Assembly: GCA_003352285.1 (NCBI GenBank)
Contig: QQVN01000005.1
Span: forward strand, 410,380-474,379
Source of the DNA: Thermoproteota archaeon
GTDB lineage: Archaea; Thermoproteota; Nitrososphaeria; Nitrososphaerales; Nitrosopumilaceae
Length of the DNA stretch: 64,000 nucleotides
Reading direction: 5' to 3'
Every line of letters begins with the position of its first letter. The stretch's first letter is position 1. The notes beneath the pieces are model-generated. The model did no database searches, was not told where the DNA came from, and was given only the letters and a program-made list of their open reading frames with translations. Positions 28,589-45,467 of the stretch are shown here, in pieces. A program made the position numbers and the translations under genes.

Positions 28589-28972
28589 TTATTTATCAAA
28601 TTGGATTATTTCAAAAATCTTTTGCATTATGGTTGCTTCATCTGCATTTTTCTCAAAGGATACCAACAGTAAAAGACTAGAGTCAATTGGTATAGTTGCC
28701 CTTTTGACATTTTCATATGATGTGATGGAGTATTCGGGTTTTCCAAGATCTCCCTCTGCATCCATACGCGTGGCATGTCTAATTGATGATTTCATTACTG
28801 AAAACTGTAATCCAGAATCAGACAAGAGAGGGGAGACACCATCTGCATATTTTGCATCCAATAGTTGTCCATGAGTTGTACATATTCCAACAAATCTAAT
28901 TGAATCAGAGCACTCAAAGATCAAATCAAAATCTAAATCATGAATCACTTGTTTTTTTGTCTCCTGCGTCAT
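28589..28972 (-). CDS. Roadblock/profilin-like small protein, copy 1
   Basis: A 127-residue soluble protein. The pattern of IRFVGICTTHGQLLDAKY near residues 25-42, then a helix, then a strand pair LLLLVSFEK suggests a roadblock/longin-like alpha-beta fold, as in the DUF6659-type proteins of thaumarchaea that I recall. The protein at 30907-31275 shares the same layout (VRFAGVINDRGNMVAG and a late hydrophobic strand pair), so they are probable paralogues. Such proteins often scaffold small GTPases or sensory proteins; this is inference. Confidence 0.6.
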   Translation of the reverse strand: MTQETKKQVIHDLDFDLIFECSDSIRFVGICTTHGQLLDAKYADGVSPLLSDSGLQFSVMKSSIRHATRMDAEGDLGKPEYSITSYENVKRATIPIDSSLLLLVSFEKNADEATIMQKIFEIIQFDK

Positions 28973-29118
28973 AACTCATTATAGTTAGTTTGCTAATTTA
29001 AGGAATTGCTTCAAAAATTGGAAAACATTACCACTAGAAAAAATATATTTAAAAAAAATTTTCTATATATTGGTACAACATTCGAAGTATTATTATAAAA
29101 AAATAAAATGAAAAAAAA

Positions 29119-31868: not shown

Positions 31869-33071
31869 CTAGTGGAAAATTTGATTTTGTATTAAAAATT
31901 CCAAAGACTGTGTAAACTCTTCATCAGTGATCAATCCTTGCGACCACCAACCTGCAGAATTTTTAAACCATTTTGGAATTTTAAGTTCATTATCAGATTC
32001 TGTGTTAATGAAATCCTCTTCAATTAAAAAGTCGACACCATTGATGAAACTTTTTTCATCAATCATTCCAGATGACCATGCAGCAGCTCTATCTTTTACC
32101 CACAGTGGGATTACTGTGTTGTCAAACTCATAGTTTTCACTGAACCCATTTATTTTTAAAACTCCGTTTGAGTATGGCTTAACAGTATATGCCACATGCC
32201 AGTTTCCCATCTCATCAATACTTTGCAGAAAATCAACTTGCTCACCATTTAATGTAACATCGAATTTTTCATCCAAAGATGAGACTGGAAATTCAAAATT
32301 TGCATATGTTTCAATTGGATAGCTATTCTGCATTCGCATGGATAATTCTGTTCCTTTATCGTTAAACTCTGCATAAGCATACCAAGCACCAGAATCATAT
32401 CGGAAAAAGAATCTCTCATCATTACGAGTAGTTGATACAGGAATAATTGTATCATCAGCTGGAGCAAAGCAACTATAGTACAAAACTTGAGACGATACAG
32501 ATGAATCAGGATACATGGCAAATTCAGCAATTTCACCCGGCCCAAGATTTGTTATAGGTACAGCATTTTGTCCTACATCTAGAACCACGTTTCCTTTTCC
32601 GTGAATTACAGCAAGCAGTTTTACATCAGAAATTGTTTTTTCACTAGTGTTAATCACTCTCCCTGTTACGTGACCATCATCATGCACGACAAGGGTATTA
32701 TCATAAATTACTTCTAGCCCAGTGGCTTCATTGATACCTACAATGAAATCAATTTCAGCCTCGTTTAGGATAGGATTATCTGTTTTTACCTCAGGGAATT
32801 TGAATTTAAAAGGCAAGTCTTTTGATGGCATGATATTGACATATGGAAAATCCCTTTTGATAATTTCATCTCCATCAAGAATTGTAATAGATATTGTTGG
32901 AATTACGGGATAGGGTTCCCAATTTCTAATAGCTCCGACAACAGTGTAGACTCCATCACTATCAAAATAGCCAACATATTCTTTTTCAGGAATGAATACC
33001 TCTGCATACGCAAATTGCGAAAAAAAGAATATGCCAAATACAAAAACTACAATGATTGAAAGTGTTATCAC
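31869..33071 (-). CDS. Secreted protein with two C-terminal Trp repeats
   Basis: A 400-residue protein with an N-terminal hydrophobic signal (about 1-23). The body is beta-rich, with several Asn-Glu and Tyr-rich stretches that suggest an Ig-like fold in two or three domains. The last ~75 residues contain two copies of a ~35-residue repeat: IPLWVKDRAAAWSSG...F...LI and IPKWFKNSAGWWSQG...EF...LI. The same repeat occurs in pairs in three further proteins of the neighbourhood. The role may be cell-wall (S-layer) attachment or display. Only four bases part its stop from the convergent zinc-ribbon gene. Confidence 0.78.
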   Translation of the reverse strand: MITLSIIVVFVFGIFFFSQFAYAEVFIPEKEYVGYFDSDGVYTVVGAIRNWEPYPVIPTISITILDGDEIIKRDFPYVNIMPSKDLPFKFKFPEVKTDNPILNEAEIDFIVGINEATGLEVIYDNTLVVHDDGHVTGRVINTSEKTISDVKLLAVIHGKGNVVLDVGQNAVPITNLGPGEIAEFAMYPDSSVSSQVLYYSCFAPADDTIIPVSTTRNDERFFFRYDSGAWYAYAEFNDKGTELSMRMQNSYPIETYANFEFPVSSLDEKFDVTLNGEQVDFLQSIDEMGNWHVAYTVKPYSNGVLKINGFSENYEFDNTVIPLWVKDRAAAWSSGMIDEKSFINGVDFLIEEDFINTESDNELKIPKWFKNSAGWWSQGLITDEEFTQSLEFLIQNQIFH

Positions 33072-33082
33072 AGTGTTATTTG

Positions 33083-33589
33083 TTATAACGCGTTAATAAT
33101 ATCTTCCAGTCCGGTTGCAGGCTTATCTAATAATCCAGGCTGATAATCTTCAATTAGTTTATCTACAGAATCTCTATCCTTGACTAGAAATATTTTCTTT
33201 CTATCCTGTAGTGATAGTGATAAAATACCTTCATCAACTAGTTGTGATACATAAAATGATACAGTAGATGGTGCCTTGTTTACTTTATCTACAATTTCAT
33301 TAAATGACAAGCCTTCTTTGTTAATCATTAAGCTGTGAATGATTTTTCTTGTAGTGGTACGTCGGAGATTTTTAATAATCTTTGAATCTGTTTCGGAAAC
33401 TTCTAATGGATAGAATCTAGTCTGTCTTGGTTCACGGACAACTTGGACTAATCCAGATTTTACAAGCTTATCCAAATAGTGACTTAGTACACCGTTTTTT
33501 AGTCCCGTAAAACGCATAATCTCTCTATACTTTATTCCAGGATTTTTTTCAATTACCTGAATCAAATGTGTGGTTCTTTCATTAGTCAT
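33083..33589 (-). CDS. Winged-helix regulator with two DNA-binding domains
   Basis: A 168-residue protein with two winged-helix domains: residues ~6-60 (NPGIKYREIMRFTGLKNGVLSHYLDKL) and ~85-150 (LSFNEIVDKVNKAPSTVSFYVSQL). The frame continues to a GTG at 33601, but the ATG at 33589 overlaps the stop of the preceding gene by eight bases, the usual coupling, so I chose it. It is cotranscribed with the four-segment membrane protein upstream. It is a candidate regulator of the neighbouring secreted-protein genes, including a cupredoxin; that is inference. Confidence 0.85.
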   Translation of the reverse strand: MTNERTTHLIQVIEKNPGIKYREIMRFTGLKNGVLSHYLDKLVKSGLVQVVREPRQTRFYPLEVSETDSKIIKNLRRTTTRKIIHSLMINKEGLSFNEIVDKVNKAPSTVSFYVSQLVDEGILSLSLQDRKKIFLVKDRDSVDKLIEDYQPGLLDKPATGLEDIINAL

Positions 33590-33974
33590 TTCGAAATACA
33601 CCCATAGCCAACAAACCCAAGCTCATTATCATCAAAAGGTGGCCAACCTCTAATAAAGCTAGATCACCCAAGTTATACAAGCTTGGCCATGTTGCATCAA
33701 GCAAAGTAACTATTTCTGCCATAACAAAGGTGGAGAATGCAAAAATTGTTATCAAAAGTCTCTTTGAATGAACTCTGACGTATGCCATGACACTTAGAAT
33801 TGTAAGAAAAGTAGCCAAAGTTATTCCGCCTACATGCAAGAGAATGTGGGCAATATGGAAACCATGAAAGATATGAGGTAAGATTACAGGTGCAGCTAGT
33901 ATTCCTACCACTCCTGCAACCACTATACTAAACAGGGTTGATTTTCTCTCTAAGATCTGACTGGGCCTAAACAA
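33582..33974 (-). CDS. Four-segment membrane protein, unknown function
   Basis: A 130-residue protein with hydrophobic segments at about 16-34, 42-62, 72-93 and 105-126, thus mostly membrane. His residues cluster near the second segment (HIFHGFHIAHILLHVGG), which could bind metal such as copper, or heme; this is not proven. Its stop overlaps the start of the double winged-helix regulator, so it may sense a signal for it. No known family recognised. Confidence 0.72.
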   Translation of the reverse strand: MFRPSQILERKSTLFSIVVAGVVGILAAPVILPHIFHGFHIAHILLHVGGITLATFLTILSVMAYVRVHSKRLLITIFAFSTFVMAEIVTLLDATWPSLYNLGDLALLEVGHLLMIMSLGLLAMGVFRND

Positions 33975-34041
33975 GTAACTACAATGACTCTTCTAGGAAT
34001 TTAAAAAAACTGGTTCAAATATCGAAAAATTGGCTTATTGA

Positions 34042-35931
34042 CTAGCTTCCTACCCTTATGATCCCGTTTGTTATCATCCATTCTACCCCTTGCAAAAATT
34101 CAGAATTTGACAAAGTTCCATCAGACCACCACTTTGCATTTGTTCGAAGCCAATTGGGAATTGTAGTTTCAGTGCTTTCCTGTGTGGTAGTTGATGCTGG
34201 AACGTTGATGATTTTTTCATTTATCAAATATTCTAATCCAGCTGCAAAGTCTTTGTCTGAGATTTGTTCATCAGACCACCATTTAGCATTATTCTTAACC
34301 CATTGTGGGATATCATCGGATGCATTCTTTACAGAAACACTTCCAATCATCCAAGGATGCAATGTACAGAAATAATCAAAGTCACCTGCAGATGAAAACT
34401 TGTATGAAAAACTTTGTTTGGTTGCAATGATTCCGCTATCAAAAACACCCGAAGGCCCAGATGACGGAATTCCAGATGTTACAGTATGAGCAGCATTATC
34501 ATTATTTTTCCAAACTACAACTTCATTTTGTTGAACTGATATTGACTTTGGTTCATAACACGAATCATTTCTTTCGCATCCCGGAGATGATGATCCAGAT
34601 CTAATTGAGACTTCATGATCTCCTTTTGTAGTAACTTCTTTTGCTTCGGATACTCTGAATGAAAATTCTCCAGAGGTATCAAAATTATTCACATTAGAAA
34701 TTTTTACTATTGCTGCACCTGTAGTGTCAAATTTTACCCTGATAGAGTCCTTTCCATCTGGTGTCTCTCTTTGTGTTTGAGACTTTACAGTTTTACCATT
34801 TAGTAACACATCTAGATCGTATGATATCTGTGGTATCAATGCATTAGATACAGGATCATGAAATTCAATGTTCAATGTAACATCATTATTTGGATTGATT
34901 TTGCCCTTTGGGCTCAACCACAAATGAAACTTCCAATCTTCTTGAGTTGATAGTTTGATTGATTTTTCTCCTTCTTCTAGAATTGCATCACTCTTTTCTA
35001 CTTCTCGTTGATTCCCAGATTCAATTCCAAAAACTATTCTGTCACGCTGATTAGCAGGGATTTGGTCATAGAGTTTGAGCAGTTTCTGAGTAGGAATCAA
35101 AAAATGAACTACTATTTCTTCATCACCTGAACGATCTATTGTTCCTAGAATCGAGATATCATTTACAGTCATCAAAATATCGTGATTGTTAAATTCAGTA
35201 ATTGATTTTGGGAGATAATACTCTGCATGAACAAAGGGTATTTTTTCAATGAATTTTTTGTCCCAGTTAAATGGCATGAGTGCAGTTAATTTTTTATTTT
35301 TCTCATCAAATGAAAATTCTTCTATCTTGTCAAAATATGTGGCAAACATAAGGTGATATTTTTTATTTTTAATGTCAATCTCGAATGGAATATACTCACC
35401 AATTGTAAGTAAAGTTTCAAAGGTTCTATCATTACCAGAGATAGTTTTTCCATTGATTGAGAGAATTGTGACTTTGACGTTTACTAGTCCGCCTTCTAAA
35501 AATAATGGGCCCTTAATCACAAGCGGACTTGTAATAGTTCCAATCCATTTTCCGTTAGGAGTTTTTTCTCCAGAATAATTTAGCTTTGAATCTGGAATGA
35601 TCTTTATTGATAATTGCTGTTCTGGTGAGAATGCATCAAATGATGCAATCAAATCATTTGTTTGCCCATCATGGATTTCTATGTTATACTCTATGGATGA
35701 GACAGAATTCATAGAGTCTACGTCGATAGTAGTGACAGAGAAATCGATCTCATTCTCATCGCCCTTTAGTACATCGGGATTTGTTTCAACTTTGACTTTG
35801 AGATAATCATTTCCTATCTTGATTGATTCACTCTCAACACTTCCTAACCCATGTCCGTATACCTCACTAGTTCCAGCTATCAGAATTAATGAGATAATTC
35901 CAAAGAGAAAATAATTATTCAAAGTTATCAA
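34042..35931 (-). CDS. Secreted cupredoxin protein with two C-terminal Trp repeats
   Basis: A 629-residue protein with a signal peptide (about 1-27). The first ~440 residues are beta-rich domains of unknown fold. Then a type I copper domain runs at ~450-540: a WKNNDNAAHTVTSG strand gives the first His, YFCTLHPWMIG the Cys, second His and Met. So it should bind one copper as a plastocyanin-type electron carrier. Two Trp repeats (IPQWVKNNAKWWS and IPNWLRTNAKWWS) end the protein. Thaumarchaeal electron transport is rich in such copper proteins. Confidence 0.88.
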   Translation of the reverse strand: MITLNNYFLFGIISLILIAGTSEVYGHGLGSVESESIKIGNDYLKVKVETNPDVLKGDENEIDFSVTTIDVDSMNSVSSIEYNIEIHDGQTNDLIASFDAFSPEQQLSIKIIPDSKLNYSGEKTPNGKWIGTITSPLVIKGPLFLEGGLVNVKVTILSINGKTISGNDRTFETLLTIGEYIPFEIDIKNKKYHLMFATYFDKIEEFSFDEKNKKLTALMPFNWDKKFIEKIPFVHAEYYLPKSITEFNNHDILMTVNDISILGTIDRSGDEEIVVHFLIPTQKLLKLYDQIPANQRDRIVFGIESGNQREVEKSDAILEEGEKSIKLSTQEDWKFHLWLSPKGKINPNNDVTLNIEFHDPVSNALIPQISYDLDVLLNGKTVKSQTQRETPDGKDSIRVKFDTTGAAIVKISNVNNFDTSGEFSFRVSEAKEVTTKGDHEVSIRSGSSSPGCERNDSCYEPKSISVQQNEVVVWKNNDNAAHTVTSGIPSSGPSGVFDSGIIATKQSFSYKFSSAGDFDYFCTLHPWMIGSVSVKNASDDIPQWVKNNAKWWSDEQISDKDFAAGLEYLINEKIINVPASTTTQESTETTIPNWLRTNAKWWSDGTLSNSEFLQGVEWMITNGIIRVGS

Positions 35932-35953
35932 TTTAGAAAAATTTCAAGGTCAC

Positions 35954-35979
35954 AAAAAGGTTTAGACTTTGATTAAACC
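35954..35979 (-). terminator. Terminator-like hairpin after the 661-residue protein gene
   Basis: On the minus strand GGTTTA pairs with TAAACC across a 9-base loop and is followed at once by TTTTT. The hairpin overlaps the stop codon region of the gene at 35962-37947. The T run lies just inside the gap before the cupredoxin gene, so it should end or thin transcripts before that gene. Confidence 0.5.
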
Positions 35980-37947
35980 AGATGAGATCAGAAACTGGAT
36001 TCCATTTGTAAACTCAATGTCAGAGATGTGACCTTCTGACCACCATACTGCGTTGTTTCTTACCCAATCAGGAATCGATGTTTCACTGATTACTTCTTCA
36101 TCTGTTGTTTCTTCTGATGTTGGAATTTCGATTATTCGTTGTTGAATTAGATACTCTATTCCACTTGCAAACTCTTTATCATCAATTTTAACATCGCCCC
36201 ACCAGGCTGCATTTTTCTTTACCCAATCAGGTATGACTATATCGGTAGCAACTGGAGTAATGAGAACTTTGTTTGGTTTGGTTTCTTGAGTTGGTGTTAT
36301 TACAGAAGGCTCTTCAGATGGAGATGTAATGTCTGTATTTCCATTCATTATTCCTTTGCTGTAGGGTAAATCATAGATTATTGCCTTGGAAGTTATATCC
36401 ACTTGATCTTGACGTGAGAATGGTTTTGGTAGTGTCAAATCAGTATATTCAATGTAGATAGTATCTTGATCAGATACACGTAGTCTGTCTAATTTGTCTG
36501 AGGAATCATCAGTGGTAACACGGAATTCTCCTTTAAGGACATCAATAAAGTGTGCATGTGTACGACCTTCAAACTCTGGTGTTTGACCAGCCTTTTTGAA
36601 AGCACTGTGTTTGCCAACAATTTGTTGTAAAACAGCTTCAGGTGCGACTTGGAAAGAAAAGTCTTCACCTAATCCAGAATTAAACACATTCTTGACTACA
36701 ACTTTGACAGAACCACGTTCATCAAATCTGATTGGCTCAATGCCGTGTCCATCATCAAAGTAGCGGTTGTTTCTAGTTTCAACTAGCTCACCATTAAAGT
36801 AAATTTCCATATCATAGCTAAGCTTCTTTTGGTGAATGTCAGTCTTTCCAGTATGTACCATTAGATTAAGATGGTAATCTTGATCAACTCCAATTACACC
36901 TCCTGGTTCCCACCAAAAGTATATCTTCCATTTTCCATCAGGAGTGTATTTTGTAAGTGATGATGCTGCAGGTTCTGATAATGGTTCACTTATTCCTTCA
37001 TATTCAACGGCTGAACCATGATCATGGTTTGGGATGAACTGTACAGGGACATAAATTCCAGATTCATCAGATTCAGACCAAGCACGAATCCAATATGTGA
37101 AGAATTCTGCATGATGTACCCATAAATCTGCATCATGCAAGGTAAATGTGACTAGTTCATCAGTGGTAAAAGTTTCCTTATCAAAGGATATCTCACCCAT
37201 TCTCCATGTCCATGTTGCAGTCTTTGAAACTACAACATTGTCATTTGCTTCCCATGATACTGTTACAGCACCGTTTTGGAAGTTTGTTGTTAATCTTGCA
37301 GCTACATCATAAGCACTACCAAGTATGGCATCAGAACATGCTGGCTTATGATGCATCATTTGGGCATGTGCTTCAGGGAGGAATGTGTTAAGCATTCCTG
37401 AAAATAAGAAAGAGTGTAATTTGATTAATGGGAATATGAACCCGTGGCCGTGTCCACCACTACTCGATGGTCTACAATTGGGGGTAATATTTTCACCATA
37501 ATTAGATGAGGTGTGACCGTGTGCCTTTACTGTTTGACCATTTTCATTATGAACAATATAGTGTTGACCATTTAGTTTCACAACACCAAAGAAAAGTCCT
37601 GTATCGGGTCCAGTTTCTGAAAAGACTGCTGTTGTAACCTTGTAATCTCTAGTTGCAATTGTAATCTTGCTTCCATATGCCTCACCAATGTGATCAATTA
37701 AGAGTTCATCCTCATTCCATCCTGGAGCATAAATTAAGACATTAACTCTGTCTGTCCATGTGTAGCCTTCATATTTTTCATCACATTCTTGCATCGTCAT
37801 TGCCTGATTTGAACAAAATTTCATAATTACACCTGTTGCCTTTTTTGTATTTGAGAATCCAGATTCAGAAGATGCACTTTGCACTGGGATAGACATCACC
37901 AAAGTTGCTAATAGAACAAATATCATTAGTTGTGATGCCTTTACCAT
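35962..37947 (-). CDS. Large secreted protein with two C-terminal Trp repeats
   Basis: A 661-residue protein with a signal peptide (about 1-26). The first domain (~30-150) is beta-rich with Asn/Gly loops. A His/Gly-rich stretch lies near 165-175. Residues ~215-470 show Ig-like strands and many aromatic residues. Two Trp repeats follow at about 570-605 and 625-660 (IPDWVKKNAAWWG, IPDWVRNNAVWWS). It may be a cell-surface or copper-related protein, like its neighbour. The promoter region contains the exact 25-bp dyad at 37988-38012 just upstream of a TTTAATAAA box. Confidence 0.8.
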   Translation of the reverse strand: MVKASQLMIFVLLATLVMSIPVQSASSESGFSNTKKATGVIMKFCSNQAMTMQECDEKYEGYTWTDRVNVLIYAPGWNEDELLIDHIGEAYGSKITIATRDYKVTTAVFSETGPDTGLFFGVVKLNGQHYIVHNENGQTVKAHGHTSSNYGENITPNCRPSSSGGHGHGFIFPLIKLHSFLFSGMLNTFLPEAHAQMMHHKPACSDAILGSAYDVAARLTTNFQNGAVTVSWEANDNVVVSKTATWTWRMGEISFDKETFTTDELVTFTLHDADLWVHHAEFFTYWIRAWSESDESGIYVPVQFIPNHDHGSAVEYEGISEPLSEPAASSLTKYTPDGKWKIYFWWEPGGVIGVDQDYHLNLMVHTGKTDIHQKKLSYDMEIYFNGELVETRNNRYFDDGHGIEPIRFDERGSVKVVVKNVFNSGLGEDFSFQVAPEAVLQQIVGKHSAFKKAGQTPEFEGRTHAHFIDVLKGEFRVTTDDSSDKLDRLRVSDQDTIYIEYTDLTLPKPFSRQDQVDITSKAIIYDLPYSKGIMNGNTDITSPSEEPSVITPTQETKPNKVLITPVATDIVIPDWVKKNAAWWGDVKIDDKEFASGIEYLIQQRIIEIPTSEETTDEEVISETSIPDWVRNNAVWWSEGHISDIEFTNGIQFLISSGLIKV

Positions 37948-37987
37948 TGTACAATGTTTTTAGATAAAATTTTTATTAAAAGTAGAA

Positions 37988-38012
37988 TGGTTCATTCTAA
38001 GAATGTACCAAT
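37988..38012. promoter_or_regulatory. 25-bp dyad, copy 1, between divergent genes
   Basis: The left arm is TGGTTCATTCT and the right arm AGAATGTACCA, with one base between and AT at the right edge. The stretch is the exact reverse complement of the one at 40817-40841. It sits between a minus-strand TATA-like box at about 37973-37981 and a plus-strand one at about 38014-38021. Leaderless starts for the genes at 37947 and 38045 fit both. It is a candidate operator or activator site for both genes. Confidence 0.75.
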
Positions 38013-38044
38013 TATCTATTAATTTTTTTTCAAAATAAAAAATT

Positions 38045-39367
38045 ATGACATATGAAGAATTATTTTTAATTATTTTCAGCATACTGATTGTTTTTCCATC
38101 TGCATCATCTGTATTTGGTGAAGAGGAATCAATTCTTCCAAATTGGATTAAACAAGTAATAGAATTGTGGGTAAATGAAAAAATTTCTGACCAAGAATTT
38201 ATCGACTTGATTGAGAATGTTCTAAATAGTCAGATTATTCCTTCCGAAGTTACTTTAGATGAATCATCGGTTTTGCTTGTTCCAAAAAATGAAATCAATG
38301 AAAAGACTGGCGTATTTGTAGGAAAAGACAATCAAAGTATACCGCTATGGGCTAAAGAGCGAGCTGCATGGTGGGTTGAAGGAAAGATTACTGATGAACA
38401 GTTTCTTCGAACACTTCATTATTTGAGAAACATGGGAATTATGGAGTATAATCCTGAAATCAGTATATTTTCAGAAGAGGATACGCACGACTCTAGTCTA
38501 GAAAAATATCTCTTGACCCAAGAGGAAATATCTAGATTTACTCAAGGAACGATTTGGAGGTTTGTTTCAACCGAATATGAATTTGAAGAAAAAGAAGGAG
38601 TTGTTGATTCTGTGAAAATTATTCTAAAAGACATCAAGCGTATGCATGATCCGATATTCAACAAATACAAAGTTCCATCAATGATGATGCAGATAACAGA
38701 ATTTAACAACAAAAAAGATTTAGAAAATTATTGGAATTCTTTTGAAAAAGATAGTGAAGGAAGTATTTTTTCAAGAGCATATATGGTAGGATCACCAAGT
38801 GACAACTCGGATTGCTTTTTTAGTTATACATATGAGGGTGCAGTAACCTCATGCAATTATGATAACATGATAATTCAAGTTGTGATTTATGATGAGTATA
38901 ATGAACATTATGAGTATGGCAAAAAAAATCTTCTGATTGACCGAAGTGAGCCATCAACAAGATTCATGAGCGAAATTTTACAAAAGATTGCCAAATACAA
39001 AAATCAAAAAGTAAATGAAAGACTGGATTATGTTTTACAAAAAAATTCATCAGATGAAGATGAAAAAATAATTAATAGAGAGCCAGAAAAATCTAAAATT
39101 TTTGGAATAAAGAATTTTTCATGCCAACGAGATGATTTTGGACTAGTAAAGATTTCAGGACAATACAACAATGATGAAAGGCAAAAACAAAACGTTGATT
39201 TGCAGATCACATTTTTTGATAGTAATAATTTACCGGTAGGAAAAAACACTGTCAGTCTTTATGATGTAAAAGAATTTGAAAGTAGGAAATTCATTGGATA
39301 CACAAAGTGGACTGGTCAATTTTTATCCTGTGATGCATCTGTATTGGACTCAAAGAGTCCTACTTAA
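38045..39367 (+). CDS. Exported protein with two N-terminal Trp repeats
   Basis: A 440-residue protein. A signal peptide lies at about 1-25. The two ~35-residue repeats are at 31-66 and 99-133 here, thus at the N-terminus instead of the C-terminus: LPNWIKQVIELWVNE and IPLWAKERAAWWVEG. The rest (~140-440) has no known family; it includes two Cys near 258 and 268, a long charged stretch near 320-350 and a C-terminal beta-rich domain with Cys at ~360 and 429. Transcribed from the dyad-flanked promoter at 37988-38012. Eight bases overlap the convergent gene. Confidence 0.75.
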   Translation: MTYEELFLIIFSILIVFPSASSVFGEEESILPNWIKQVIELWVNEKISDQEFIDLIENVLNSQIIPSEVTLDESSVLLVPKNEINEKTGVFVGKDNQSIPLWAKERAAWWVEGKITDEQFLRTLHYLRNMGIMEYNPEISIFSEEDTHDSSLEKYLLTQEEISRFTQGTIWRFVSTEYEFEEKEGVVDSVKIILKDIKRMHDPIFNKYKVPSMMMQITEFNNKKDLENYWNSFEKDSEGSIFSRAYMVGSPSDNSDCFFSYTYEGAVTSCNYDNMIIQVVIYDEYNEHYEYGKKNLLIDRSEPSTRFMSEILQKIAKYKNQKVNERLDYVLQKNSSDEDEKIINREPEKSKIFGIKNFSCQRDDFGLVKISGQYNNDERQKQNVDLQITFFDSNNLPVGKNTVSLYDVKEFESRKFIGYTKWTGQFLSCDASVLDSKSPT

Positions 39368-40706
39368 TCAAATGGGCAAAGTTTGACGTAATATCGTTAA
39401 ATCTAGTCATACTAGGCTCTAATTTTGCAAATTCCACACTAGCACAGTGCATTAACCATTGTTGTACAGCGTCAGATTCTGCAATGTTGGATTTTCGAAT
39501 AATTGAGATTAGCTCAATACTAGTCATTTCATAAGTAATGCCAAATCTGTTGCAGTAGTAGTATCTTATTGCCTGACTGAGTTTTTCATATGCATCCTTT
39601 CTTTGTCCGCCATTGAATAGAGAAATTGATTCATCAAGCATTACTGCTGTTTGTTTTTTGAAATCAACTTGGGTTGAAACAGTTTGCAATAACGGTGCCT
39701 CTAATTTTCTTTCCCAAGGCTTTTTGTGCATCAAATATCCCAAAACAATCAATGCAACAACTACGGGTATCATAATCAGTATCACATAGTTGTCAATTGA
39801 TGTTGTTGGTTGTAGTTCAAAGATTGGTCTTTCATTGAGTGCATCTCTGATATGCTTTGTATTTTCAAATTGCGGTCTTTCTAATTTTAGATTATCAAAT
39901 ATCCTGCTCCTAGTGTCTTGAGGTGTTGAAACCATTACCTCTAATTCTTTTAGTGATCCATCAGGTTGAAGTTTCTTACCAGTAAGTAGTTCTTCAAATA
40001 TTTGCTGACTTTGAGCAGTTAGATCCTCTATCATGCGTTCACGCATTTGGGTTTGATCTAATCTCAAGTAGTTAGGTGACAGTTCATTTAGATCAAACTC
40101 TCCACCGTATTTTTGACTGTTAGCAATAATCTCTCTTGCCTTATCTAATGCAGCTGGTGAGAAGACACCGTTTGGAATTGCTTCCAAATCATCAAGATCA
40201 TAACCACGTTCAAGTAGAAATAATTCCAAATTAGAGTTTGGATAATAATCAAATGCAACACCACGAATAATGTATCGTTGTTCTCCTACTGGATCTAAAA
40301 GTGCTTCAGCGACTTCAACATAGCCATCTGAATATCTATCATGATATTTTATTTTGTGTAACCAGTTTTCCTCACTCAGATCTCTTTGATCAATTAAGAC
40401 TTTGTTTAGTATTTGACCTTCTTCGGATTCTATGGTTATTGCATGATCACCAATGCTGTAACCATTACCTGTAACAAATTTATCATAGTACACTTTTTCA
40501 GATTCTTTTTTTTGCTCCTCTATGATGTTTTCATAATTTGAGATGATTTGATTTGAAGATGTTTGTAATCCAGAATTCAGCTGTCCCTCTATCATCCAAT
40601 CAATTTGGATATCAGGATGTGCTGCATAGATTGGATTTGTATAAAGTATCAGTGGTAACAAAAGCAGACAAAGTAGAAATTTTTTGAATCGAATAATTTG
40701 TTGCAT
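39360..40706 (-). CDS. Membrane protein divergent from moxR, DUF4129-like C-terminus
   Basis: A 448-residue protein. A signal/anchor lies at about 9-27, a large outside domain to ~305, a membrane helix at ~311-331, and a cytoplasmic part to the end. The last ~80 residues (AIRYYYCNRFGITYEMTSIELI) resemble the DUF4129 domain that often accompanies MoxR and DUF58 genes. A GGAGAT Shine-Dalgarno site stands before the ATG at 40706. The dyad at 40817-40841 separates its promoter from that of moxR. It probably links the MoxR/VWA module to the envelope. Confidence 0.72.
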   Translation of the reverse strand: MQQIIRFKKFLLCLLLLPLILYTNPIYAAHPDIQIDWMIEGQLNSGLQTSSNQIISNYENIIEEQKKESEKVYYDKFVTGNGYSIGDHAITIESEEGQILNKVLIDQRDLSEENWLHKIKYHDRYSDGYVEVAEALLDPVGEQRYIIRGVAFDYYPNSNLELFLLERGYDLDDLEAIPNGVFSPAALDKAREIIANSQKYGGEFDLNELSPNYLRLDQTQMRERMIEDLTAQSQQIFEELLTGKKLQPDGSLKELEVMVSTPQDTRSRIFDNLKLERPQFENTKHIRDALNERPIFELQPTTSIDNYVILIMIPVVVALIVLGYLMHKKPWERKLEAPLLQTVSTQVDFKKQTAVMLDESISLFNGGQRKDAYEKLSQAIRYYYCNRFGITYEMTSIELISIIRKSNIAESDAVQQWLMHCASVEFAKLEPSMTRFNDITSNFAHLIK

Positions 40707-40816
40707 GATAAATCTCCAAAATCAAGTACACGTGTGTGAATCATGAAAAATGGACAGAAATGATTCCCGTATAGTCAATTTCAAGAATTCAAAGGCAAAA
40801 AACAACTATAATGAAA

Positions 40817-40841
40817 ATTGGTACATTCTTAGAATGAACCA
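40817..40841. promoter_or_regulatory. 25-bp dyad, copy 2, between divergent genes
   Basis: Left arm ATTGGTACATTCT, right arm AGAATGAACCA, sharing a base at the centre. It is the exact reverse complement of 37988-38012, all 25 bases. A CTATAATGA stretch at 40804-40811 is the minus-strand TATA candidate, and TGCTATTAATGC at 40845-40856 that of the moxR gene, whose TTG start is about 26 bases on. The two copies thus lie in the same position between divergent promoters. Confidence 0.78.
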
Positions 40842-40877
40842 CTTTGCTATTAATGCAAAAACTCAGAAAATACAATA

Positions 40878-41900
40878 TTGGCACTGAGAGAGTATGAACC
40901 CGATTTTCAAATATCAAATAAGGACATAGAAGATCTAAATCAGAAATCACAAGAGTATGCTCAAAAATTATCCAGTGTATTAGAAGAGTCCCAGAAGGTA
41001 ATAGTTGGACAACAGAATGTAATTAGAAAAATTCTCATTTCAGTTATTGCAAATGGTCATGTTCTACTTGAAAGTGTACCAGGTTTGGCAAAAACACTCA
41101 TGGTAAAGACAATGGCAAATATTTTCAATGTAGAGGATGTTAGAATTCAGTTTACTCCAGACCTATTACCTGCAGACATTCTTGGAACAAAAATTTACAA
41201 AAATGTTTCAGGAAATTTTGTAACCCAGAAAGGACCAATCTTTCACAACTTTGTTCTAGCTGATGAGATTAATCGTGCACCACCAAAGGTTCAATCAGCA
41301 TTATTAGAAGCCATGCAGGAAAGACAAGTAAGCATTCATGGTGACACATTCAAGCTACCAAAACCGTTTCTAGTTCTTGCAACACAAAATCCAATAGAAA
41401 ATGAAGGAACATACAAGCTACCTGAAGCACAAGTAGACAGATTTGCACTAAAGATTTTGATTGGTTATCCTTCAAAAGATGAAGAAGTATCAATTATTGA
41501 GCGCAATTCAAACGGTTATGAAGAATCAGTAAAGTCATTGATTAAACCAGAAGAGATCATTGAGATTCAGAAATTTAATGAAAACATCTATGCAGACAAA
41601 GTAATTACAGAATACATTGCAGACATTGTAAACGCAACAAGAAATCCAAAAGAGTACGAACTTGATCTAGCTAGCATGATAGAGTTTGGAGCATCGCCAA
41701 GAGCCTCAATTTGGTTGATGAGAGCAGCAAAGGCAAATGCATTACTCAATGGAAGGGGATTCGTAATTCCTGAAGATGTAAAGGAAGTTGCACATGAAGT
41801 TCTCAGACACAGAGTTATTCTGACATTTGAGGCAGAAGCAAACGGAATTAACACAGATAAGATAATCGACTTTGTTTTAGAAAAGATCACTACACCGTAG
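40878..41900 (+). CDS. MoxR-family AAA ATPase
   Basis: A 340-residue AAA+ ATPase of the MoxR branch. Walker A is ESVPGLAKTLMVKT (about 57-70), Walker B is FVLADEINR near 121, sensor 1 is ATQNP near 165, and sensor 2 lies in ASPRASIWL near 275. MoxR proteins act as chaperones that insert metal cofactors or assemble protein complexes, working with VWA-domain partners. Two such partner genes follow. TTG start at 40878; 26 bases upstream lies a TATA-like box preceded by the dyad. First gene of a three-gene operon. Confidence 0.93.
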   Translation: MALREYEPDFQISNKDIEDLNQKSQEYAQKLSSVLEESQKVIVGQQNVIRKILISVIANGHVLLESVPGLAKTLMVKTMANIFNVEDVRIQFTPDLLPADILGTKIYKNVSGNFVTQKGPIFHNFVLADEINRAPPKVQSALLEAMQERQVSIHGDTFKLPKPFLVLATQNPIENEGTYKLPEAQVDRFALKILIGYPSKDEEVSIIERNSNGYEESVKSLIKPEEIIEIQKFNENIYADKVITEYIADIVNATRNPKEYELDLASMIEFGASPRASIWLMRAAKANALLNGRGFVIPEDVKEVAHEVLRHRVILTFEAEANGINTDKIIDFVLEKITTP

Positions 41901-41902
41901 CA

Positions 41903-42784
41903 ATGACTAATTTATCTGAGCTCCTAAAGAAGATAAAAAATCTTGAAATCAATACAAAGACCCTAGTTGAAGGAATGGAATCAGGAGGATACCGCTCTCG
42001 ATTTCGAGGTGGCGGAATAGAGTTCTCAGAAGTGCGTGGTTACATGCCTGGAGATGATGCCAGAAGAATTGACTGGAATGTTTCTGCTCGATACGATAAC
42101 CTGTTTGTCAAGGAATTTGTTGAGGAAAAGGAGCTAAACGTCTATGTGGTAGTGGATTTGTCAGCCAGTAACGATTTTGGCTTTGAGAAGAGCAAAAAAG
42201 AGCTTGCCTTTGAAATTACTGCATCACTGATATTTTCTGCATTAAAAAATAATGATAGAGTTGGAATGGGAGTTTTTACAAATACCCTGGAAAAGTTTGT
42301 TCCAGCCAAGAAGGGAAAAAGGCATATGCTACAGATTCTTCAGCAGCTTTTAGATCATAATCCTTCAAGCAAGGAGACAAACATCTTTCAGTCAATCTCA
42401 GATCTTTACAAAAAATTAAGAAGGCGCAGTGTAGTCATAATTATTTCGGATTTCTTGTCAGATTCATTTTCTAAACCATTGCAGCTCTTAAAATTACAAC
42501 ATCAGGTAATCTTGGTAAATATTTCAGATATTCGTGAAAGAGTAATTCCAGATATTGGACATGCATACTTGGAAGATGCTGAATCTGGAGAACAAATTTT
42601 AGTAAATACTTCGGATAAGAGATTCCAAGAGCAATACACAAAACTAATCGATGATGCATCAAAAAAAATTCATTATGATGCACGAAAGTTAGGCATTGAT
42701 ATGTTGAATTTAAGTAATGAAGAACCATTTGACATTACATTCAATCAATATTTTAGAAACAAGATGAGGTCACACTTACAATGA
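41903..42784 (+). CDS. DUF58-domain protein with VWA-like fold
   Basis: A 293-residue protein. The DUF58 signature GDDARRIDWNVSARYDNLFV lies at 50-69, and the following domain carries a MIDAS-like DLSAS (~88) and a late ISDF group. It has no clear membrane segments. It follows moxR by two bases and overlaps the next gene by four (ATGA), so it is translated together with both. DUF58 proteins are the standard middle partner in MoxR gene sets. Confidence 0.92.
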   Translation: MTNLSELLKKIKNLEINTKTLVEGMESGGYRSRFRGGGIEFSEVRGYMPGDDARRIDWNVSARYDNLFVKEFVEEKELNVYVVVDLSASNDFGFEKSKKELAFEITASLIFSALKNNDRVGMGVFTNTLEKFVPAKKGKRHMLQILQQLLDHNPSSKETNIFQSISDLYKKLRRRSVVIIISDFLSDSFSKPLQLLKLQHQVILVNISDIRERVIPDIGHAYLEDAESGEQILVNTSDKRFQEQYTKLIDDASKKIHYDARKLGIDMLNLSNEEPFDITFNQYFRNKMRSHLQ

Positions 42785-43731
42785 ATATTCAGTTTGAGTT
42801 CTTGCCAGCATTATTGTTACTTGCAATAATTCCAGGATTGTTTTTCTTGTATTCAAAATACAACTCTAGTAAAAAAGAATCACTTTTGAAATTTAGCTCA
42901 TTGAGCATAATAAAAAAAGCAATTTCTGGAAAAAGTTTTCTTAGAAAACATCTTCCATTTGTGTTATTACTGATAGTTGTATCTCTAATAATCATTGCAC
43001 TGGCAAATCCACAGATACCATCATTTTCAGTCGAAAAGGGAATTAATCTAAGTATAGTAATTGATGGTTCGGAAAGCATGTCAGCAAAAGATTATCAGCC
43101 AACGAGAATGGAGGCGGCTAAAAGAGCAGTCAGTAGTTTGGTAGGAAAATTAAATCAAAATGACAATGTTGGAATAGTTCTTTTTGAATCAGGAGCAACT
43201 ACAATCTCATACATGACACCAGTCAAGGAGAAAACCATTGATGCCATTTCATCAATACAACAGAGTCAGGGAGCAACTGCCCTTGGAGACGGAGTGTCTT
43301 TGGGAATTGATATGGTATCATCAATCCCAGACAAGAAGAATATTCTCATTCTTCTTAGTGATGGTGTTCATAATTCTGGCTTAATCACGCCTGATGAGGC
43401 CATAGATTATGCTAAGATGAACAATGTTCAGATTCACACAATTGGTCTAGGTTCTGAAGAGCCAGTATTTCTAAGAAATGACGTGTATGGGGAACCACAA
43501 TATGTTGAGCTAGACGAACAGACTCTGAAGAAAATTGCAGATGAGACAAATGGAAAATATTTCAAATCTGTAGATGAAAAAACTCTAAACGAAATATTCA
43601 CACTTCTTAGCTCAAACATGGAATACCAAATAGAGTGGGCATCAATTAGTCAGTGGTTTATTGGTGCTGCAATGGCTTTGCTTTTAGCTAATGTCTATAT
43701 CATTTATGGTAGATATAGAATTGCAGCTTAA
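42781..43731 (+). CDS. VWA-domain membrane protein, BatA-like
   Basis: A 316-residue protein. Membrane segments lie at about 5-24 and 58-77, then a von Willebrand A domain at ~88-280 with the MIDAS motif DGSES near 96 and conserved Thr and Asp residues later (GATALGDG, LLSDGVH), and a last membrane helix at ~290-311. This topology is that of BatA/BatB proteins. With MoxR and DUF58 it makes the full set of the module. Its substrate may be one of the secreted proteins nearby; that is inference. Confidence 0.9.
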   Translation: MNIQFEFLPALLLLAIIPGLFFLYSKYNSSKKESLLKFSSLSIIKKAISGKSFLRKHLPFVLLLIVVSLIIIALANPQIPSFSVEKGINLSIVIDGSESMSAKDYQPTRMEAAKRAVSSLVGKLNQNDNVGIVLFESGATTISYMTPVKEKTIDAISSIQQSQGATALGDGVSLGIDMVSSIPDKKNILILLSDGVHNSGLITPDEAIDYAKMNNVQIHTIGLGSEEPVFLRNDVYGEPQYVELDEQTLKKIADETNGKYFKSVDEKTLNEIFTLLSSNMEYQIEWASISQWFIGAAMALLLANVYIIYGRYRIAA

Positions 43732-44411: not shown

Positions 44412-45068
44412 CTATGAATGTCCTAGACCATCATTATGAGGGTCTTCATCGTTGAGGTCATATACTGGGTTGTGGTCACCTGGACCAAATCCTAATACTG
44501 GACCGTCATGGTATTGATCAGTTCCAATGCTTCCTAGTACTTGTTGTATGTTAATATCAACAACATCAACATCACCAAATGAGATTGCCTCATCGGAGAG
44601 GTTAATCAAATCAATATCAGTCACTCTTGGTGCACCACCGTTTAATGGGTCTGGGATGTGTGCATGGTAAATGCAACTACTTGGTTCAGTAGTTTTTGAT
44701 ATTGCGTTGATATAATACAATGGAACTAGCTGCATGTTTGCGTGCTCAAGGTTCTCATCCACATGGCCAGCAATTAGTGCAATTGTTGGTTGGTAGGTAT
44801 CTTCACCTTCAGCTACTGGCTCGCATGGTGCTTTAAGCAAGACGTGTCCTGAGACATAGTTTGGGCTAGAATCATACAATGGGAAGATATCCCCTGGTTG
44901 CATTGTGATATCATTTAGTCTGATGTGTGTGTTATCAGGAATGGTACCTGCTGCAGCTCCTAGTTCAAAGCTATGACTTGCAAAGACTGTTCCGCCATAA
45001 GCAATTGTGATTGCCAAGAATGCTGTTCCAAGTAACAATGGAAGTTTGTTCTTGTTTAGATTAGTCAT
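44412..45068 (-). CDS. Secreted protein with acidic, His-rich tail
   Basis: A 218-residue protein with a signal peptide (about 1-30, VFA-type site). The mature domain is beta-rich with two Cys near 83 and 135, and the tail (~190-218) is Asp/His/Asn-rich (YHDGPVLGFGPGDHN), which could bind metal. Family not known. It is the first gene of a two-gene unit. A TTTTTAATCC-type TATA box lies about 25 bases upstream of the ATG, with the variant dyad at 45102-45135 next to it. Confidence 0.72.
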   Translation of the reverse strand: MTNLNKNKLPLLLGTAFLAITIAYGGTVFASHSFELGAAAGTIPDNTHIRLNDITMQPGDIFPLYDSSPNYVSGHVLLKAPCEPVAEGEDTYQPTIALIAGHVDENLEHANMQLVPLYYINAISKTTEPSSCIYHAHIPDPLNGGAPRVTDIDLINLSDEAISFGDVDVVDINIQQVLGSIGTDQYHDGPVLGFGPGDHNPVYDLNDEDPHNDGLGHS

Positions 45069-45101: not shown

Positions 45102-45135
45102 ATTGGTACATTCAAAAATTATACCGGTACAATTC
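45102..45135. promoter_or_regulatory. Variant of the dyad, copy 3
   Basis: ATTGGTACATTC at 45102-45113 is identical to the left 12 bases of the copy at 40817. The other half is not the exact partner: after AAAAATTATACC comes CGGTACAATTC, so GGTACA is present twice in the same direction. The site lies directly upstream of the TATA-like box of the 44412-45068 gene, as in the other copies. Confidence 0.6.
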
Positions 45136-45168: not shown

Positions 45169-45315
45169 TTATTTTGAGAAATATTCGTTTAGTAAAAAAT
45201 TAACAGTGTCTGAAAAACTATACCAGTATTGTTCTTCTTGAACTTTTTTGGCTTGAATCTGGCGAATCTTTTCTTCCAAGGAACTATCTATTGAAAATGT
45301 AACTCTTTTTCTCAT
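45169..45315 (-). CDS. Ribbon-helix-helix regulator, 48 residues
   Basis: Found by hand. ATG at 45315 to TAA at 45169-45171. The start MRKRVTFSIDSSLEEKI is a ribbon strand with the alternating pattern of MetJ/Arc/CopG regulators, followed by two helices (KIRQIQAKKVQEEQYW and SDTVNFLLNEYF). The SFSDTVNFLL helix matches the second helix of the fold. The gene lies between two copies of the dyad (45102-45135 and 45442-45467) and has its own inverted repeat upstream. It is a good candidate for the protein that reads these sites. Confidence 0.72.
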   Translation of the reverse strand: MRKRVTFSIDSSLEEKIRQIQAKKVQEEQYWYSFSDTVNFLLNEYFSK

Positions 45316-45341
45316 GTGGCATCATCTAATACGGGATTTAA

Positions 45342-45395
45342 TGGATGAGAAACAAATGACAACAATGAATAAGCGTGTTAGTAGTTTCTCATCCA
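45342..45395. promoter_or_regulatory. 12-bp inverted repeat upstream of the ribbon-helix-helix gene
   Basis: TGGATGAGAAAC at 45342-45353 and GTTTCTCATCCA at 45384-45395 are exact complements, with 30 bases between. The near arm lies just upstream of the ATTAAATCC TATA-like stretch of the ribbon-helix-helix gene. It may be a pair of binding sites for a dimer of dimers, so an autoregulation site. It could also be a long hairpin. Confidence 0.5.
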
Positions 45396-45441
45396 CTATG
45401 ATCTGAACAAATAGTATTACACGGTTCTGGATAAAAGACAA

Positions 45442-45467
45442 ATTGGTACATTCGAGAGTTGTACCAT
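45442..45467. promoter_or_regulatory. Variant of the dyad, copy 4
   Basis: ATTGGTACATTC followed by GAGAGT and TGTACCAT; the arms ATTGGTACA and TGTACCAT are an inverted pair with one mismatch in the outer bases. The left 12 bases are identical to copies 2 and 3. A TCTTAATAG stretch at about 45479-45487 is a TATA candidate, which puts a leaderless start near 45510, at the ATG of a 20-codon frame. Confidence 0.62.

Follow-up and report, generated by a model that had tools for sequence, protein, structure and literature searches.

A candidate copper-sparing antisense small RNA beside a small ribbon-helix-helix-like gene in the Nitrosopumilaceae

Electron transport in ammonia-oxidizing archaea (AOA) relies on copper proteins. 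The nitrite reductase gene nirK is among the most transcribed genes of these organisms (PMC11334935). In Nitrososphaera viennensis, the motif TTCSGSMTTTGWACYANT was reported 12 times at positions -35 to -70 of genes that are induced by copper limitation, near CopC/D, DsbD, and an ArsR regulator, and the regulation of the Cop genes was described as an open question (PMC7785015). The same study states that the copper response of N. viennensis differs from that of N. maritimus. Metal sparing by antisense small RNAs (sRNAs) is represented by the RyhB type and by IsrR of Staphylococcus, in which a promoter responding to iron limitation is combined with a small RNA that silences mRNAs of iron-using enzymes (PMC9410917). 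An archaeal sRNA, sRNA162 of Methanosarcina mazei, acts on mRNAs in trans via base pairing (PMC3510493). The open-access literature searched here contained no description of an sRNA and its target in ammonia-oxidizing archaea.

The DNA analyzed here, a stretch of 64,000 nucleotides referred to as the window, belongs to a 1.69-Mb genome whose relatives are Nitrosopumilaceae, ammonia-oxidizing archaea. One locus in it probably specifies an antisense sRNA which is induced by copper limitation and would spare copper by silencing nirK, with a gene for a ribbon-helix-helix (RHH)-like protein directly downstream. The hairpin sRNA next to the RHH gene is previously undescribed. Similarly to RyhB and IsrR, it appears to join a metal-limitation promoter to a small RNA that would silence the mRNA of a metal-using enzyme (PMC9410917). 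However, it is archaeal, the metal is copper (inferred) instead of iron, a single hairpin carries the antisense segment in its loop, and there is neither Hfq evidence nor a sequence relation to these RNAs. With sRNA162 it shares the predicted action on an mRNA in trans, but it belongs to another lineage, has a different structure and target, and no homology was shown (PMC3510493). Two features of trans-acting antisense sRNAs were found in it: a covarying structure and, in the window genus, extended complementarity to a distant mRNA start, that of nirK.

The putative promoter of the sRNA contains one of four dyads that were located in the window by pattern scanning. Two of them flank the RHH frame, as had been noted in the first-pass annotation: GGTACATTCAAAAATTATACC at 45105 to 45125, 36 bp upstream of a secreted-protein gene (44412 to 45068), and GGTACATTCGAGAGTTGTACC at 45445 to 45465, the proposed driver of the sRNA. 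Both are conserved in the sister genome G001. Another (37989 to 38009) is situated between divergent secreted-protein genes (35962 to 37947, minus strand, and 38045 to 39367, plus strand), and the last (40820 to 40840) lies 37 bp upstream of a MoxR ATPase gene (40878 to 41900). The distant genome G124 keeps these latter two dyads at the same places, between the s661/s440 and the s448/MoxR homologues. Allowing up to 2 mismatches, 6 matches to the dyad were detected in the window, against 0.64 expected. When the dyad was extended and up to 3 mismatches were allowed, only four places remained in the whole genome, all within 7.5 kb of the window, and the control yielded 0. The spacing to the downstream element is almost fixed. 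Distances from the dyad edge to the four start codons are 41, 35, 37, and 36 bp, and 39 bp separate it from the putative 5' end of the sRNA; the corresponding value for the RHH start is 129 bp.

The distance of the dyads to the start codons is the same as the -35 to -70 placement of the N. viennensis motif. Moreover, the right half of the dyad, TTCnnnGAATGTACCAAT, fits TTCSGSMTTTGWACYANT at TTC and TGWACYANT with equal spacing, and both elements occur near an ArsR-type regulator and DsbD (PMC7785015). This outer pattern of TTC and TGWACYANT was found 6 times, with 0.18 occurrences expected per 64 kb. It should be noted that the motif, which comes from another AOA order, finds no counterpart in the dyad at its three SGS positions or its middle MTT, and that the central SGSMTT is partly fitted at 34009 to 34026 only. 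In addition, the Nitrosopumilaceae dyad is a fuller palindrome, GGTACATTC-N3-GAATGTACC, with another center, and the study that reported the motif mentions no small RNA (PMC7785015). Judged by these matches, a link of the dyads to copper is probable.

The partly fitted site on the minus strand (34009 to 34026) resembles the copper-limitation motif and lies 34 bp upstream of an operon that extends from 33974 to 33083, which suggests autoregulation. As seen downstream of the stretch from 34026 to 33974 on this strand, the operon consists of a 130-aa membrane protein and a winged-helix regulator (33083 to 33601, minus strand). The latter is an ArsR-type winged helix according to Pfam HTH_24 (9.6e-18) and HTH_5 (1.4e-11), HTH_metalloreg remaining below the cutoff. 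The protein was matched in 24 of the 25 sRNA genomes examined, more weakly in G179 and in G194, where it contains a stop; the genome without a match is G085, in which the sRNA is present. Several genomes carry the winged-helix gene within a few kilobases of the sRNA, and it is also found in genomes with no detected sRNA. The RHH protein exhibits neither this co-occurrence nor this proximity. The winged-helix protein is the most likely candidate for binding the dyad.

The same cluster encodes a secreted protein with a plastocyanin-like copper-binding domain (34042 to 35931, minus strand; Pfam Copper-bind, 9.2e-8). The whole secreted-protein cluster (31869 to 43731) comprises repeated W(V/F)KNNAxWWSxGxIxDxEF-type segments, the plastocyanin-like domain protein, MoxR, and vWA proteins, and other Nitrosopumilus genomes keep part of it near the sRNA or the dyads. 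Another motif-like site, TTCGAATGTTGTACCAAT, was observed at 29069 to 29086 (minus strand), about 97 bp upstream of an open reading frame on the same strand (28589 to 28972) and followed by a TATA-like stretch. Between the TATA-like box and the start of the winged-helix operon, GAGTCATTGTAGTTAC resembles, in the same sense, the common sRNA loop of other genera.

The sRNA might be real and yet respond to something other than copper shortage, such as oxidative stress or stress to the envelope, and a different protein might then occupy the dyad. We assign this alternative a limited but appreciable probability. Most genes of the presumed regulon encode secreted proteins of unknown function, and G085 combines the sRNA with the lack of a winged-helix match. 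The similarity to the copper-limitation motif, the plastocyanin-like and DsbD genes, and the predicted target, a copper enzyme, argue against it.

The sRNA itself was assigned to 45339 to 45405 on the minus strand and consists of a 5' leader (CAGATCATAG), a 12-bp stem that can be extended, and a 30-nt loop. Its transcription start was placed where an archaeal TATA box would put it, with CTTTTATC (45430 to 45437, minus strand) as the putative box; this position matches the onset of conservation, and that of the box is conserved in all homologues. The two arms of the stem, at 45384 to 45395 (5' arm) and 45342 to 45353 (3' arm), are exact copies of TGGATGAGAAAC in inverted orientation. This is the 12-bp repeat which the first-pass annotation had described correctly and placed in the promoter of the RHH frame. 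The sequence comparisons identify it instead as an RNA stem with compensatory changes; the conserved small RNA to which it belongs occurs, together with the dyad, in many genomes without an adjacent RHH gene. As a dispersed operator, TGGATGAGAAAC was discarded: apart from the two stem arms, one exact copy only exists in the genome.

To delimit the RNA family, 250 genomes of the Nitrosopumilaceae were searched with a pattern composed of a dyad half, a spacer, and CATAG. One locus each was identified in about 27 genomes from four genera, a count that applies after removal of unrelated matches; the reversed-pattern control gave at most 1 per genome. An independent scan detected the locus in named Nitrosopumilus genomes as well, including Ca. 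N. salaria BD31. About 25 sRNA homologues are available from elsewhere in the family. Their layout is constant: the dyad is followed by the TATA-like box, approximately 25 unconserved bases, a conserved leader (ACAGGCCATAG or relatives), the hairpin, and often a T run. Over 25 distinct loci, the stem pairs covary by exchanges of A-U/G-C, C-G/A-U, G-C/G-U/A-U, and A-U/U-A/G-C. The RNA of the window folds with -22.7 kcal/mol (z = -5.3), and the fold z values overall were -5.3 and -6.35. Searches over 37 to 47 kb returned only chance-level matches to known Rfam families, including the C/D-box sRNAs.

A part of the loop (45363 to 45383, minus strand) is antisense to the start-codon region of nirK, a gene outside the window (contig G000:C5, start codon at 165102, minus strand). 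On the sRNA strand, complementarity covers 20 to 21 nt, comprising the start codon and the five codons after it. Twenty bases of the loop correspond exactly to the nirK-type gene start of many other Nitrosopumilaceae. The nirK start of the same genome matches with 1 mismatch and is the only other site in this genome at up to 2 mismatches. The resulting duplex, which contains one C-A mismatch, has a predicted energy of -25.9 kcal/mol, a value reached by 0 of 5,000 shuffled loops. When the loop was compared with all 1,868 open reading frames of G125, another species, the nirK start ranked first with -28.3 kcal/mol, followed at a gap of 7.5 kcal/mol by a site with -20.8 (mean, -10.6; standard deviation, 3.0). 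The target gene is NirK-like, as indicated by TIGR02376 (E = 1.7e-39) and Cu-oxidase_3.

The first sRNA with a loop of the nirK type is carried by two genomes of one genus. A second dyad-driven hairpin sRNA was identified in one of them, G001, beside a DsbD_TM gene (L175:979-1050; G001:C10, about 46.2 kb). Its loop, UAGGAGUCAUUUAGCUUAUUCAUACCAGUA, joins AGGAGUCAU, an element common in other genera, to a shorter nirK-start antisense, GCUUAUUCAU. Since the loop differs in other genera, the nirK reading rests on the two genomes of the window genus and on this second sRNA. The homologues in G073 and G161 hold shorter UUAUUCAU elements, which are too short to weigh. The nirK start region was also observed on two short contigs each in G191 and G177 (contig ends, L168 to L171). 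Being nearly identical, these copies are probably assembly duplicates or paralogues and not sRNA copies.

Alternatively, the hairpin could act only in cis, as a 5' leader for the RHH mRNA that serves as a translational switch or stability element, with an incidental similarity to nirK. The poly-T run of the homologues is missing from the sRNA of the window genus, and the RHH start is located about 26 nt 3' of the stem with no poly-T terminator separating them; therefore, the transcript could run on into the RHH gene. This alternative is nonetheless unlikely. Homologous hairpins in other genomes are not followed by an RHH gene, many of them terminate in a T run, which would fit free sRNAs, and a 20-nt match at the nirK start codon is far beyond chance. 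Even less probable, in our estimation, is that the loop represents a functionless nirK fragment captured by recombination. Read on the plus strand, the matching segment has the sense orientation and could encode MNKRVS, and loops differ between genera, as such an origin would allow. However, a block of 83 bp (45328 to 45410) exhibits zero changes between the window and G001 despite flanks that differ by 16 to 20%, and the second sRNA of G001 independently bears a nirK-start antisense next to AGGAGUCAU.

In other genera, the loop is of the GGAGUCAU type, unlike that of the window genus, and the nirK start is not its target. No clear target of this loop emerged from a pattern search in 15 genomes or from a duplex ranking over all G125 starts together with 777 ortholog pairs with G124 (0.8 Mb of G124). 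The start of a fatty acid desaturase gene in G125 offered a 12-base fit and was rejected, the gene being absent from 24 other sRNA genomes; the nirK interior and the start of the winged-helix gene were unsupported as targets. The start of amoX pairs with GGAGGAGUCAU via AUGACUCUUCC (11 pairs, one G-U) and ranks 3 to 31 of 1,868 in most species with that loop. Because its mean rank across all loops is 16 and the pairing was noticed after the fact, amoX can be considered a lead only. One might extend the argument to a family of copper-limitation-induced hairpin sRNAs in the Nitrosopumilaceae, with loops as exchangeable antisense cassettes against the start codons of the dominant copper enzymes, nirK in the window genus and amoX of the ammonia monooxygenase cluster via GGAGGAGUCAU in others, but we regard this generalization as doubtful. 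As a separate observation, a loop piece of other genera, CATCTTAGTACC (for example, L151 near 6060), recurs in the same sense in an apparent 23S rRNA segment of G125 and G124 (TGGTACTAAGATG, opposite strand), probably by chance.

The 48-aa frame (48 codons, 45169 to 45315, minus strand) is a real protein-coding gene, though not the center of the locus. Its ribbon-like MRKRVTFSID segment and its two helical stretches had been pointed out previously, and the frame is unbroken in G001, the sole genome of the same genus, with 98% identity. Ten of the 11 nucleotide changes between the two occupy third codon positions, and one amino acid is changed, corresponding to a dN of 0.0085, a dS of 0.53, and a dN/dS of about 0.016. 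Homologues with 30 to 50% identity were detected in 15 of the 61 genomes searched, frequently in several copies each, and have R4, T6, D10, R18, Q21, S33, S35, and L42 in common. The family is multicopy in the Nitrosopumilaceae and, in this homologue search, seems to be confined to them.

Assignment to a known fold was less direct. The protein itself had no match in Pfam or NCBIfam, and its paralogues gave weak matches, each below the Pfam cutoff, to RHH_3, RHH_1, RHH_5, CcdA, and TraM. The top match of the family profile against the PDB was the N-terminal strand of NikR (E = 0.46). An AlphaFold2 monomer based on a two-sequence alignment was predicted as a single helix (residues 11 to 46) with no strand, residues 1 to 10 having a pLDDT of about 61. 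With the CopG/RHH superfamily, the protein shares its length of 48 aa, a K/R-R-V/I-T-x-x-I/L-D strand, two helical stretches, and a conserved SxS turn; it differs by scores below the Pfam thresholds and by a longer stretch from helix A to the turn. RHH is the best reading of this sequence because the paralogues touch several Pfam RHH models below the cutoff and the K-R-V-T-x-x-I-D strand is present.

The first-pass annotation had proposed an RHH regulator flanked by its operators. The small conserved RHH-like gene stands, and the role of the dyads and of the 12-bp repeat as its operators is not supported. Although a real RHH-like gene does lie between two dyads that the sister genome conserves, such a local circuit is highly improbable: the dyad and the hairpin are present in genomes that lack an RHH gene beside them, and even in G012 (99% complete), where no RHH match was obtained at E <= 0.01; changes in the inverted repeat come in pairs, the pattern of an RNA stem; and RHH homologues elsewhere sit in other gene contexts without a good dyad, the nearest orthologous group in other genera being flanked by genes for a response regulator and a TPR-like protein.

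For the nirK-silencing sRNA, which we favor, we infer the following course from transcription and copper control to the binder and the translational block. Under copper scarcity, the dyad immediately 5' of the TATA box would be bound by a regulator, for which the winged-helix protein is the most likely candidate. The dyad promoters would be switched on, and secreted and copper-related proteins as well as the sRNA would be made. The sRNA loop would pair with the start of the nirK mRNA and block initiation, so that the copper of the abundant nitrite reductase is saved. In the window genus, read-through might yield an mRNA in which the RHH reading frame is preceded by the hairpin as a 5' leader, and the RHH protein could be a co-induced small regulator.

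These sequence relationships suggest RNA-based copper saving in a marine ammonia-oxidizing archaeon, a main nitrifier of the ocean. If true, archaea would have a riboregulator that spares a metal. An RNA whose promoter element is known and whose target is predicted to the single base would make the question of how ammonia-oxidizing archaea ration copper directly testable.
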